Source: Holosporales bacterium
GTDB lineage: Bacteria; Pseudomonadota; Alphaproteobacteria; RUG11792
NCBI GenBank assembly: GCA_031269095.1
Contig: JAIRWI010000002.1
Coordinates: 1-64,000, forward strand
Direction: 5' to 3'
DNA length: 64,000 nt
In this document: piece after piece, positions 102 through 58,580 of the stretch
Layout of the letters: every line of letters begins with the position of its first letter
Position numbering within the stretch: position 1 is the first letter of the stretch
The notes under the pieces: generated by a model
Told to the model about the DNA's origin: nothing
What the model saw: the letters and a program-made list of their open reading frames with translations, nothing else
Databases searched by the model: none
Position numbers and translations under genes: made by a program

Positions 102-138
102 ATTATATTCTATCATTAAAAGGTTAAAAAAGAGTTAA
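102..138 (-). promoter_or_regulatory. Promoter with CtrA-type box upstream of the left-edge secreted protein
   Basis: On the minus strand the sequence reads TTAA-N7-TTAACC (122-138), the consensus of the alphaproteobacterial cell-cycle regulator CtrA, then 14 bases and a TATAAT (102-107). The same architecture and spacing recur upstream of the secreted protein at 55647-56429, including the shared TTAACCTTT and TAGAATAT blocks. CtrA control is inferred from the motif; no ctrA gene is visible in this window. Confidence 0.5.
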
Positions 139-7299: not shown

Positions 7300-8499
7300 T
7301 CACCTATGGCATATAGAATCTTTAAAAACACTATTAACATCAATGCCATTTTTAATCATCTCCCAAAGAGGACTCATTTTTCTAAGTTTTTTTGTCGCTG
7401 CTACTAAATCTTCTATTGCAATGTTAATATCGCTTTCCGATGTGTTTTTACCAATAGAGATACGAAGGGAAGATTGTGCAATATCTGGCAGAACATTCAT
7501 CGCTTCTAAAACGTGCGAAATAGTGAGCCTGTTAGAAGTGCAAGCTGAGCCAGAAGAGATACATATTCTAGAAGCCTCCATCATAAGAGCCTCTCCTTCG
7601 CACCCCCTAAAACTTATATTAACAATGCCAGGATAGTTTGAGGGGTTTTCTCCGTTTATATAGATTTCTTCAAGGTTTTTTCTAATTCCATTAACTAAAA
7701 TGGTCCTAAGATTTTCTATGTGCTTAAGATTATCTAAAATTTCTTGATTCGTAATATTACAGGCAGCACAAAATCCTATACAAAGAGGAACTGGGATTGT
7801 ACCACCCCTTATGCCAAATTCTGGGTCAGCATTAGTTTCGCCCTTTTGTTTAATAAGTTTATAGTGTTTTCTATTAAAATAAACAAGCCCAACCCCTTTA
7901 GGACCATAAATTTTATGTCCAGAAGCACTTATAAAATCGCATTCAAGATTTTTAACATCTATTGGAACCTTGCAAAGTGCCTGAGTTGCGTCAATGTGCA
8001 GAAGTGCTCCGTGTTCATGACATATTTTTGATATTTCTTTAACGTTTTGGACGACTCCTGTTTCGTTGTTAATAAAACAAATAGAAACAAGTTTTGCCTC
8101 GTGTTTAACAATGTTTTCACGTAATAGGTTATGGTCTAGCAAGCCATTTGGTAAAACATCTAAAAACACAGAGTTTTTAACTAAATTGCAGGATTCAAAT
8201 ACTGATTTATGTTCTGTTTTTAAGGTTATTATTACATTTTCTTTAGAACAAACTCTTTCTATTACTATTCTAGTGGACTCTGTGGCTCCGCTTGTAAAAA
8301 CAATTTCATCAAATTCAGCATTAATAATAGCTGCAATCTTTTCTCTAGCGAGGGACAAATCCTCAAAAGCGCTTAATCCATAATAGTGCGATGAGCTTGA
8401 ATTACCGAATTTTTCTCCAAAATATGGTAACATTTCCGCCAAAACCCTTTCGTCACACGGGGTCGTCGCTGCATAATCCAGATATATTGGCTTAAACAT
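7300..8499 (-). CDS. Cysteine desulfurase (IscS/NifS class)
   Basis: The 399-residue PLP enzyme (aminotransferase class V) begins IYLDYAATTPCDERVLAEM. The PLP-binding lysine lies in SASGHKIYGPKGVG near 205, the active-site loop cysteine in SSGSACTS near 332, and a PLP-contact His in LHIDATQ. It removes sulfur from cysteine for Fe-S cluster and tRNA thiolation. Its short SSGSACTS loop region and GIRGGTIPVP segment fit the NifS/IscS group, not SufS. No iscU, iscA or iscR neighbour is present, so I leave the symbol blank. An AGGTGAA ribosome-binding site supports the start; the gene is divergent from the peptidase gene at 8547 (47-base gap). Confidence 0.93.
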   Translation of the reverse strand: MFKPIYLDYAATTPCDERVLAEMLPYFGEKFGNSSSSHYYGLSAFEDLSLAREKIAAIINAEFDEIVFTSGATESTRIVIERVCSKENVIITLKTEHKSVFESCNLVKNSVFLDVLPNGLLDHNLLRENIVKHEAKLVSICFINNETGVVQNVKEISKICHEHGALLHIDATQALCKVPIDVKNLECDFISASGHKIYGPKGVGLVYFNRKHYKLIKQKGETNADPEFGIRGGTIPVPLCIGFCAACNITNQEILDNLKHIENLRTILVNGIRKNLEEIYINGENPSNYPGIVNISFRGCEGEALMMEASRICISSGSACTSNRLTISHVLEAMNVLPDIAQSSLRISIGKNTSESDINIAIEDLVAATKKLRKMSPLWEMIKNGIDVNSVFKDSICHR

Positions 8500-33675: not shown

Positions 33676-34794
33676 TTAAGATAATAGGTTTGGAAGTGGA
33701 AGAAAAGGAATATTTTTTTTATTTTCATAGTAGTACATAGATCTCATTTTTACATTTTGAGGCAAAACAAGAAATGCATTTTTTTTCTCTTCTCCTTCAG
33801 GTAAAGAGTTAATTTCTTGAATTTTTTTGTTTACTTTTTCACACCACTTATAATAATTTGTTTTAGAAGAATCAAATCCTTTTAAAGTAGATAGATCTAA
33901 CGGTTCTGTAACCACTTGAGAAAAAGTATTACGATTATATATAGAACTAGAATATAGAAGACTTGGTATAGTCGATGTTTCTATATCTGCATCAAAAGTA
34001 TCACTAAAACATAAAATAGGAGGAATTGTTTCTGCCTCTATACAGTAGAATATAGCATGTTTTTTCTCTTCTTCTGTTGGTAAATTAAGAATTGCAGATA
34101 TTTTTTCTTCTTCTGTTGGTAAATCATTGATTTTTCGAAATCTCTCGTTTGTTTGTTTACACCGTTCACGAACATCTACTGAAGGAGAGGCTAATAGTTC
34201 TGTATCAGGACAAAAGAGAGAAGTATCGTCTATATTACTAAAAAGTAGGAAAGGAGGAATCATTCCTATATTTCTATAATAGAATTCAGCATGTTTTTTT
34301 TCTTCCGGTGGTAAATCAAGAATTGCAAATATTTTTTCGTCTTTTGTTGGTAAATCATTGATTTTTCGAAATCTCTCGTTTGCTTGTTTACACCGTTCAC
34401 GAACATCTACTGAAGGAGGGGCTAATAGTTTTGTATCAGGACGAAAGAGAGAATTATCGTCTGTATCACTAAAAGGTAGGAAAGGAGGAATCATTCCTGT
34501 CTTTATATAATGGAATTCAGCATGTTTTTTTTCTTCCGGTGGTAAATCAAGAATTGCAGATATTTTTTCTTCTTCTGTTGGTAAATCATTGATTTTTTGA
34601 ATTCTTTTTTCTGCTTCCAATATACTATAAATAATACTATCCTCCCTAATACTCTCTGAGTTTCTGGAAAGCTCTGCACTGGATGTTGGTATCTCCTCTC
34701 TCTCACCTCTTGGGTCAAGAATTTCTGCACTAATAGAATTATTTGTACCAAGAAAACCTAGTATAATTAAGACTTTATACGTGAGTTTGTTCAT
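33676..34794 (-). CDS. Secreted protein with four tandem internal repeats
   Basis: The 372-residue product has a Sec signal peptide (MNKLTYKVLIILGFLGTNN, cleavage after ISA). Three units of about 80 residues each contain [R/Q]KINDLPTEEEKISAIL, then LPPEEKKHAEFYY and IPPFLPFSD; a fourth, diverged unit follows (IQEINSLPEGEEKKNAFLVL). Between units 1 and 2 lies SVDVRERCKQANERFRK, repeated with a few changes between 2 and 3. The repeat is near-identical in DNA with a 240-bp period. I know no family with this unit. Its signal peptide is paralogous to that of the gene at 1-72. Extracellular or host-directed function is a guess. Confidence 0.8.
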   Translation of the reverse strand: MNKLTYKVLIILGFLGTNNSISAEILDPRGEREEIPTSSAELSRNSESIREDSIIYSILEAEKRIQKINDLPTEEEKISAILDLPPEEKKHAEFHYIKTGMIPPFLPFSDTDDNSLFRPDTKLLAPPSVDVRERCKQANERFRKINDLPTKDEKIFAILDLPPEEKKHAEFYYRNIGMIPPFLLFSNIDDTSLFCPDTELLASPSVDVRERCKQTNERFRKINDLPTEEEKISAILNLPTEEEKKHAIFYCIEAETIPPILCFSDTFDADIETSTIPSLLYSSSIYNRNTFSQVVTEPLDLSTLKGFDSSKTNYYKWCEKVNKKIQEINSLPEGEEKKNAFLVLPQNVKMRSMYYYENKKNIPFLPLPNLLS

Positions 34795-55549: not shown

Positions 55550-55655
55550 TATAATCGTTCTAGTTAGTAACAGATTAGTTTTTTAAACTATATCCATTGA
55601 AATTACATGGGGCTCGGTATTTTTATTAATACTAAAATCAAGTAAATCAACTATA
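55550..55655 (+). repeat. Dispersed repeat, subtype B, overlapping a gene end
   Basis: It starts TATAATCGTTCTAGTTAGT, has TTTTAAACTATATCCATTG and GCTCGGTATTTTTATTAATA and ends AAATCAACTATAA. The right end lies within the gene at 55647, providing its final codons and TGA stop. Confidence 0.7.
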
Positions 55656-56429
55656 ATATCTACGGGGTAATTGTACAGTTTTTGTGCCCGCATATCTCTG
55701 TGACGAAGAAGGAGTGTAGGATGTTTGCCGTATATTTGTAGCACTGCGTCCACTGCTGCCATTATAAATCATTGTTTTTGGGGGTTGTTTGTTAGAGCTA
55801 TTTGGCAATGAAACCACTTTTATTGGCCCATAGTTTTTATTTTCGTACGTTTTCCCTGGAATCATGGTGCCTTTTTTTTGAGGATAGGGTGATGAAAAAG
55901 GTTGTTTGTATGATGGGGTATTTTCCCTATATGACTGATTAGGGGGGTAATAACCTATAGGAGGCTGTTTGTTTGTTGTCGGCATAAAACTTCTAGGTAG
56001 CTGTATTGTTGGGGAAAATCCGTTTAGAAAGTTTTTTGCCCCAGGAGCGCTTTGGGATCCAGAAGAATCTATAATGTTGTTAAGTACGTCACTTAAAACT
56101 TTAACAGCTCCTTTTTCTGCACTTTTTATAACACCTTCTAAACCAGACTTTCCTTTTTTTAGAATTTCGTTTTCACCTTTGCCCATTGATTTTGCCAGTT
56201 GTTCTTTTTGAATTCTAATTTGTTCGGACTGGTATTGGGCCATAGCGAACTTTTGTTGTTCTGTCTGGCTTCTGTTTTGTCCGGACTGGTATTGAGTAGC
56301 GAACTTTTGTTGTGCTGTCTGACTTCTGTTTTGTCCGGACTGGTATTGAGGCAAAAACGAACTTCGAGCTACAGATAAATTGATTGTCAAAATACAAAAT
56401 AATAATGAAAAAAAACGATGATTGAACAT
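55647..56429 (-). CDS. Secreted protein with Gln/Ser-rich short repeats
   Basis: I do not recognise this product. From the methionine at 56429 it has a Sec signal peptide (MFNHRFFSLLFCILTINLSV, then ARS), three successive units of about 18 residues with QYQSGQNRSQTEQQKFA and close variants, a helical segment, and a Pro/Tyr/Gln/Ser-rich C-terminal half (PPIGYYPPNQSYRENTPSYK) ending YYS. The frame is open to 56456, but the -10 at 56461 leaves no room for that start, so 56429 is preferred. A CtrA-like box stands upstream. The last codons and stop lie in a dispersed repeat. Confidence 0.75.
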   Translation of the reverse strand: MFNHRFFSLLFCILTINLSVARSSFLPQYQSGQNRSQTAQQKFATQYQSGQNRSQTEQQKFAMAQYQSEQIRIQKEQLAKSMGKGENEILKKGKSGLEGVIKSAEKGAVKVLSDVLNNIIDSSGSQSAPGAKNFLNGFSPTIQLPRSFMPTTNKQPPIGYYPPNQSYRENTPSYKQPFSSPYPQKKGTMIPGKTYENKNYGPIKVVSLPNSSNKQPPKTMIYNGSSGRSATNIRQTSYTPSSSQRYAGTKTVQLPRRYYS

Positions 56430-56460
56430 AATCACATCATGAACTATTATCCCCATGTAT

Positions 56461-56497
56461 ATAATATTCTAACCCATAAAGGTTAAAAACAAGTTAA
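56461..56497 (-). promoter_or_regulatory. Promoter with CtrA-type box upstream of the Gln/Ser-rich secreted protein
   Basis: Minus strand TTAA-N7-TTAACC (56481-56497), 14 bases and TATTAT (56461-56466), the same arrangement as at 102-138. TTAACT, TTTTTAACCTTT and TAGAATAT are shared between the two sites. recG begins 8 bases beyond on the opposite strand. Confidence 0.5.
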
Positions 56498-56504
56498 TAA
56501 AATA

Positions 56505-58580
56505 ATGAATTGGTTATTTAATGATATAGAAGACATAATAGATATGAGGTATAAAAAGCGCTTTGACCTCATTAAAAAGCTTGTTGGATCTCGTATTATT
56601 GACATTCTTCTTTTTCTTCCTTCTTATACAGTACGTAAAAAATATATCTCTTCTCCATCTACTAAAAATGTAAATGAGATTATAGCTACAAAAGTAAAGC
56701 CTCTTTATATTGAAACTGGGCGTAGCAAAGCCTATCCAACTAAGGTTACTTGTCTGGCTGGGGAGATTTATGTTCAGCTTATATTTTTTAATAAATTTAG
56801 ATTGGGTTATATAAATTCATTTATAAGAAATGTACAGGAGATTATAGTTTGCGGAAAATTAACCAAACCTCCTGATAAAGAACTTCAATTTGTTCATCCG
56901 GAAATTATAACGAATTTAAATATGTGGAAAGATGATGAAAAGGCAGACAACGTGTATCCTCTAATTACCGGGGTTGATATATATTTTCTTAAAAGTGTCA
57001 TAAAGAATGCGCTACTCCGCATGGAGAATGCAAAAATTTTGGAATGGATACCTCAAGACATTCTTGAAAAAAATAATTGGGTCTCTTTTAAAAAGTCCGT
57101 AGAAATGGTTCATAATCCTAAAAATGTGGATGATACAACATTAGAAGGTGTATATGTACAAAGATTATGTTTCGACGAATGCTTAGCAGAACAAATTGCG
57201 AAAAAAATTAGCAATATGGGAGAAACACATGATGGGTATCCCATTAAAAATGAAAAAGTTTTATATAAAAAGCTTATAGAAAAATTGACTTTTAATTTAA
57301 CCGAAGATCAAATTAGCGTACTAAATAGTATAGAAGAGGATATGGCTTCTGGTAAACGACGTATGTCACGGCTACTTCAAGGGGATGTTGGGTCTGGTAA
57401 AACTATCGTAGCTCTTCTCGCTGCAACTATCGTTATTGAATCTGGGTATCAGGTTGCTCTTCTTGCCCCTACAGAAATTTTAGCTAGGCAACATTATGAA
57501 TTATTTTTAAAACTGCTTGATGGAATTGGGATTAATATCAGTATATTAACTTCATTTGAAAAAGGAAAAAAGCGCACTGCCATTCTGGAAAATCTCGTAA
57601 ATGGTACGACTAATATAATAGTTGGGACACATGCAATAATAAGTGAGTCTGTCACATTCTGTAATCTTGGTTTTGTTATTGTTGATGAACAACATAGATT
57701 TGGAGTAAATCAGAGATTGATGCTTATTAATAAGGGAAAGACGAATCCACATATACTAAGCATGACTGCCACCCCGATCCCCCGTACTCTTATTCTTTCT
57801 GTACACGGAGATATAGACGTTTCAACAATTAAAATGAAACCCGCTGGGCGAACAGAGATAATAACAACGACTGTTCCTATGGACAAAATATTTAATGTAA
57901 TTACTTCTATTAGGAGAATTATAGAAAAGGGGGAGAAAGTTTATTGGGTCTGTCCTCTAATAGAAGAGAGTGAAAAACTAGATTACACGTGCGTTATTAA
58001 TAGATATAACTTCTTATATGAAATTTTTCAAGACGATGTAATTATGATGCACGGAAGGATGAAAGAAGCGGAACGTAGAGAAATTTTCGATAGTTTTAGA
58101 GAAGGAACAAAGCATATCCTAGTTTCAACAACAATTATAGAAATTGGGGTCGATATACCAAACGCAACTGTTATTGTCATAGAAAATGCCGAAAAATTTG
58201 GGCTTTCGCAATTACACCAGTTACGGGGAAGGGTAGGGAGAAGTAATCTAAAATCGTTTTGTGTTCTTTTATATGATAAGAAAATTAGCAATATTCAAAG
58301 AGAACGACTTGATATTATAAGACGTAGCACGGATGGTTTTTATATAGCAGATCAGGATCTTTTAATCAGAGGAGCAGGAGAGGTTCTTGGAACAAAACAA
58401 AGCGGATTTAAAAAATACAAAACCTTTGATATTGATGATATAGAGCATAAAGAGACTATATATAGGATTATGAGTGAATCTGCTCAAATGGTCTCTAAAA
58501 TTGTAGATTTTTCAAAATATGATTATCTTCTAAAAATCTTTATCCTAGAAAATTTTGAAGATATGAAACAGTCTTTTTAG
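56505..58580 (+). CDS. recG: ATP-dependent DNA helicase RecG
   Basis: The 691-residue product has the N-terminal wedge domain and helicase motifs: RLLQGDVGSGKTIVALLAA near 290 (Walker A), FVIVDEQHRFGVNQRLMLI near 387, [14 protein letters not shown] near 420, and [20 protein letters not shown] near 570 with TRG-like RGAGEVLGTKQSGF. RecG reverses stalled forks and branch-migrates Holliday junctions. It lies divergently from the secreted protein at 55647 with only 48 bases between ORFs. Confidence 0.96.
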   Translation: MNWLFNDIEDIIDMRYKKRFDLIKKLVGSRIIDILLFLPSYTVRKKYISSPSTKNVNEIIATKVKPLYIETGRSKAYPTKVTCLAGEIYVQLIFFNKFRLGYINSFIRNVQEIIVCGKLTKPPDKELQFVHPEIITNLNMWKDDEKADNVYPLITGVDIYFLKSVIKNALLRMENAKILEWIPQDILEKNNWVSFKKSVEMVHNPKNVDDTTLEGVYVQRLCFDECLAEQIAKKISNMGETHDGYPIKNEKVLYKKLIEKLTFNLTEDQISVLNSIEEDMASGKRRMSRLLQGDVGSGKTIVALLAATIVIESGYQVALLAPTEILARQHYELFLKLLDGIGINISILTSFEKGKKRTAILENLVNGTTNIIVGTHAIISESVTFCNLGFVIVDEQHRFGVNQRLMLINKGKTNPHILSMTATPIPRTLILSVHGDIDVSTIKMKPAGRTEIITTTVPMDKIFNVITSIRRIIEKGEKVYWVCPLIEESEKLDYTCVINRYNFLYEIFQDDVIMMHGRMKEAERREIFDSFREGTKHILVSTTIIEIGVDIPNATVIVIENAEKFGLSQLHQLRGRVGRSNLKSFCVLLYDKKISNIQRERLDIIRRSTDGFYIADQDLLIRGAGEVLGTKQSGFKKYKTFDIDDIEHKETIYRIMSESAQMVSKIVDFSKYDYLLKIFILENFEDMKQSF

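Follow-up and report, generated by a model that had tools for sequence, protein, structure and literature searches.

The site at positions 102–138 of the window, i.e., the whole 64,000-nucleotide stretch of DNA analysed here, is one of at least 17 nearly identical units, each made up of a promoter, a ribosome-binding site and a signal peptide, that head a family of secreted proteins in this genome. The other site, at 56461–56497, has the same layout but is present in a single copy, as an independent promoter. The motif shared by the two very probably represents a CtrA-type promoter, judging from its sequence, and we put the probability at roughly 0.78 that both sites are CtrA-activated sigma-70 promoters, with the first heading an amplified, poly(G)-switched family and the second standing on its own. 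The larger finding is that an amplified and apparently phase-variable family lies behind one CtrA-type promoter. From these sequence features we infer that CtrA binds, that transcription is timed by the cell cycle and that switching actually takes place, and expression of the secreted proteins would thereby be tied to the cell cycle or to a developmental stage. The window is part of contig C50 of an 845 kb assembly (G000; 52 contigs, 34% GC), which probably belongs to a Holosporales-like alphaproteobacterium with a reduced genome, and whose RpoB has as its nearest named relative that of a Holosporales MAG (71% identity).

The full motif, TTAA-N7-TTAACC-N14-TATNAT, has exactly two matches in the window, both on the minus strand and both where the earlier note had placed them, and none in 100 dinucleotide shuffles of the window. 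By contrast, the bare TTAA-N7-TTAACC box is not significant at this scale, being found twice vs. 0.71 times expected, with two or more matches in 18 of 100 shuffles. The claim that both sites precede genes for proteins with signal peptides also holds, in that the open reading frames running 72→1 and 56456→55647 begin signal-peptide-like. The latter, encoding 269 residues, probably starts at a later ATG (MFNHRFFSLLFCILTINLSVA, MFNHRFF...), and Pfam and NCBIfam searches with this protein gave no match. The features of both sites are collected in Table 1.

Table 1. Features of the two promoter sites in the window
Feature	Positions	Strand	Basis or remark
CtrA-type box TTAACTCTTTTTTAACC (TTAA-N7-TTAACC), family copy	122–138	−	Invariant in 17/17 leader-bearing copies
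Likely −10 TAGAAT, 9 bases past TTAACC, preceded by TG (extended −10)	107–112	−	Invariant in 17 copies; genome-wide offset 9–10 peak; box-to-start distance
TATAAT at N14, probably secondary	102–107	−	Last base changed in 3/17 copies
Ribosome-binding site AAGGAGG	84–90	−	Read directly
Start of family gene, signal peptide MNKYIYKGFIILGLLGINNSTNAG, remainder off contig	1–72	−	ORF 72→1 leaves window and contig
CtrA-type box TTAACTTGTTTTTAACC, single-copy, between divergent recG-like and 269-aa genes	56481–56497	−	
Likely −10 TAGAAT at N9	56466–56471	−	
Gln-rich, secreted-looking 269-aa protein, family unassigned	55647–56456	−	Signal-peptide-like N-terminus
RecG-like helicase, divergent from box, start 8 bases away	56505–58580	+	Pfam DEAD, Helicase_C, RecG_dom3_C

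Across the 845 kb genome, there are 18 occurrences of the 17-mer TTAACTCTTTTTTAACC, most of them no more than 260 bases from a contig end, and 17 lie ahead of the same leader. These copies were collected using the leader, rather than the box, as the anchor, and their number is a lower bound. The copies hardly differ in box, ribosome site or signal peptide, and the repeat breaks the assembly, with contig ends cutting through most of them; the window copy itself stops at the contig edge, with its own tract and body not assembled. Variable columns number 0 of 17 in the box, 0 of 6 in TAGAAT and 26 of 95 in the remainder of the unit (Fisher p = 0.011, a guide only as the copies are related). Column agreement in the DNA far upstream falls to 45–51%, which places the box close to the left edge of the conserved unit. 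As duplicates of one another, the 17 copies count as a single observation about the box, not 17. The flanks that the earlier note read as agreeing at 102–138 and 56461–56497 are thus not two independent cases of one conserved flank, since the former is a member of a repeat family and the latter an independent promoter with its own surroundings. No relative of the leader-plus-body protein was found in 39 other genomes. Elsewhere in the window, a 372-aa open reading frame (33676–34794) carries a signal peptide, MNKLTYKVLIILGFLGTNNSISA, similar to the family leader, with no such box in the 260 bases read upstream. A second repeated box, TTAACTAAATCTTAA, lies ahead of short open reading frames on contigs C13 (at 203 and 1410) and C14 (at 9628), and both of those on C13 start signal-peptide-like.

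Three copies (contigs C42, C36 and C21) are readable beyond the leader, where they continue as MNKYIYKGFIILGLFGINNYTNAS..., some 40 residues, ...ATCCCTTCGGGGG... and a long open reading frame. These three show both halves of the gene, with a homopolymer inside the open reading frame that decides the frame. The body side of the poly(G) tract is visible at five loci, with runs of 13–22 G, a spread that is among paralogs. Leader and body are joined only when the G count is 2 mod 3, counting the G of TCG (the leader frame reads TC+G), and the copy on C4, in which an A directly follows the G run, obeys an equivalent rule. Since the body is in frame only at 2 mod 3, slipped-strand replication within the tract would switch members on and off. 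The body frame of all five has no ATG ahead of residues 74 to 416, so that its translation would rely on the leader. A match to BspA-type leucine-rich repeats (LRR_5, PF13306, 2.7e-10) was obtained for the C42 body, and the C21, C36, C5 and C4 bodies are relatives of that body, although the C21 body searched alone gave no Pfam match. This arrangement suggests on/off phase variation of the family proteins. Many poly(G) runs of at least 12 were also seen in four other genomes of the bacterial family (G007, G044, G013 and G017), some of them at contig ends where they may be artefacts, and poly(G) switching may accordingly be common in the clade.

The spacing between the box and the −10 element was analysed more broadly. 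At distinct intergenic TTAA-N7-TTAA sites genome-wide, −10-like hexamers peak at offsets 9 and 10 after TTAANN. Intergenic TTAA-Nk-TTAA with a −10 at offset 8–11 gives 25 distinct sites at N7, compared with an average of 5.35 and at most 12 at twenty other spacings; when a same-strand gene start within 150 bp is added, 12 sites remain at N7 vs. an average of 1.25 and at most 4 at the other spacings. Plain counts of TTAA-N7-TTAA or TTAA-N7-TTAAC, with no −10 required, show no clear N7 peak because repeats and AT-richness dominate. The bias to promoters on which the earlier interpretation depends is therefore present. The earlier note further took TATNAT at N14 as a fixed −10. A fixed spacing is indeed real, but the invariant hexamer is TAGAAT, N9 after TTAACC, whereas the last base of TATNAT is altered in the copies on C5, C10 and C23 (TATAAC, TATAAA and TATAAC, respectively). 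TATNAT was set aside because TAGAAT is invariant in the 17 copies and fits the CtrA box-to-start distance. This distance was measured as 23–24 nt at CtrA promoters in Rhodobacter, in agreement with Caulobacter (PMC6180460), and the TAGAAT of both window sites is consistent with it, since an offset of 9 would put the start ~23–24 nt from the box.

Genes with an N7-box-plus-−10 promoter include dprA. Among single-copy targets, 7 of 12 are signal-peptide-like, as called by a home-made hydrophobicity rule rather than SignalP, vs. 23% of all genes (p = 0.009). However, 10 of the 25 control-spacing targets look secreted too, and a general secretion regulon is therefore not claimed. The tie to secreted proteins is thus strong where the 17-copy family and the second site are concerned but weak for the other single-copy targets.

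A CtrA-like regulator is present. Neither of the two outcomes that the earlier note named as refuting it, a genome lacking ctrA or a motif without promoter bias, was thus observed, and its interpretation is supported at sequence level, with the −10 reassigned. The sole PF00486 (OmpR-type DNA-binding) protein of the genome, C13:5842-6597, has the CtrA model NF045991 as its best NCBIfam match at 309 bits, below the curated cut-off of 350, with the next match at 178. The genome also encodes a CckA-like kinase (545 bits) and holds four response-regulator domains. Two N7 boxes lie upstream of ctrA itself, at −108 and −64, and one or two such boxes also precede ctrA in each of G042, G020, G013 and G005. 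Just past the window, at C50:65336-65689, an HTH-like N-terminal stretch is joined to a response-regulator receiver.

Dimers of OmpR-type regulators bind an 11-bp direct repeat. In 29 same-family genomes, the 11-bp form of the box, TTAAC-N6-TTAACC, has 150 matches, compared with 36 for the reversed control and 17 for the one-base-longer 12-bp form. ctrA was found in 26 of these 29 genomes, the search giving none in G004, G019 and G017, in the last of which the box is repeated. Several relatives carry many copies of the box with one N6, which differs between genomes. In G043, the repeated box fronts a secreted-protein family (MNKLVLLSSMVMVGAG...) whose ATG lies 66 bases from the start of the box, the same distance as in the genome studied here, and in G011 it fronts a family with a signal-peptide-like start and the ATG at 71; these two secreted families are unrelated. 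The proposal that every repeated box in the relatives fronts a secreted protein fails, as the boxes of G001, G010 and G017 head intergenic repeats. Those repeats are dispersed, start with TTAAC-N6-TTAACC and often have another TTAA-N7-TTAA close by; they may represent small RNAs driven by CtrA, or else mobile repeats. At a contig end in G010 (C86, ~8229–8311), a tandem 11-base unit (TTAACCATCTT) creates at least seven overlapping CtrA-type boxes.

A duplicated family with an ordinary sigma-70 promoter would require no CtrA, with the likeness to a CtrA box an AT-rich by-product and the second site due to chance. The 34% GC content, the expectation of 0.71 bare boxes in the window and the fact that 17 of the genome's 25 TTAAN7TTAACC matches are family copies would all fit such an account. 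It does not readily explain the N7-specific excess of independent promoters at a fixed −10 distance, the zero variation within the box or the same excess in relatives, and we regard it as quite unlikely. We consider it highly improbable that the repeat represents a mobile element whose left end lies close to the box and which carried promoter and leader by chance. The differing upstream flanks of the copies and the box-led intergenic repeats of related genomes would suit an element of this kind, but the unit combines a conserved reading frame with a ribosome-binding site and a signal peptide, and in C42, C36 and C21 it leads on into a complete protein gene.

A further alternative accepts the CtrA-type promoter and instead questions the poly(G) lengths, which would be artefacts of assembly or sequencing in genes that are constitutively in frame. 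Homopolymer lengths are poorly read and unreliable in assemblies, a caution that applies directly to the assembled runs of 15, 16 and 21 in the three copies with both halves, all of which read as off; in addition, the C5 tract continues from a different upstream sequence and is probably misjoined. Against this, five loci have long tracts in the same position, flanked by similar sequence, and two contigs, C4 and C10, terminate at the tract or just past it, making a pure artefact unlikely.

Under the favored reading of CtrA-activated promoters, TTAAC-N6-TTAACC would span the −35 region and be occupied by phosphorylated CtrA, which would bring RNA polymerase to the TAGAAT located 9 bases downstream. 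Control of the family would then have two layers, in which CtrA would set the time of transcription for the whole family, and the poly(G) length of each gene, changing by slippage, would set its translation in a given cell lineage.

Each of these layers, i.e., CtrA-driven promoters and poly(G) phase variation, is well known separately. CtrA promoters of Caulobacter crescentus and Rhodobacter sphaeroides (PMC4287350, PMC6180460, PMC11264516) likewise have TTAA-N7-TTAA over the −35 and ~23–24 nt from box end to start, and boxes upstream of ctrA itself, as here. In contrast to those species, where flagella, pili or division genes are the targets, the commonest target of the promoters predicted here is an amplified family of surface proteins. 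In Ehrlichia chaffeensis, another case of CtrA at work in an obligate intracellular alphaproteobacterium, the CtrA targets named in the abstracts (PMC9005958, PMC9791040) are glutathione synthesis and stress genes, rather than a surface family. Candidatus Mycoplasma girerdii, found with Trichomonas (PMC5476646), also has numerous surface proteins of the BspA-like leucine-rich-repeat type, some of which are switched by the length of a simple repeat, but these simple repeats are dinucleotides instead of poly(G), the species belongs to the Mollicutes instead of the Alphaproteobacteria, and it is without the CtrA layer. A poly(G) tract within the reading frame decides translation in hmbR and hpuAB of Neisseria meningitidis (PMC3786947), as in the family here, whereas the proteins are unrelated and many paralogs here share one promoter and leader. 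The open-access literature yielded no report combining a CtrA promoter with poly(G) phase variation, nor one describing a Holosporales-like symbiont with a surface-protein family under CtrA.

We note that the genome studied here, G043 and G011 have different secreted families behind the same box type with different N6. It is possible, if somewhat doubtful, that in this group of reduced-genome bacteria amplified secreted families have been repeatedly recruited to CtrA promoters, with a poly(G) switch stacked on top in at least one genome, so that a surface coat varying at random would be expressed at set times. If the main reading is right, the CtrA promoter rule would be applicable across this uncultured family, and the arrangement would offer a testable route by which a bacterium with few regulators could both coordinate and diversify its surface.
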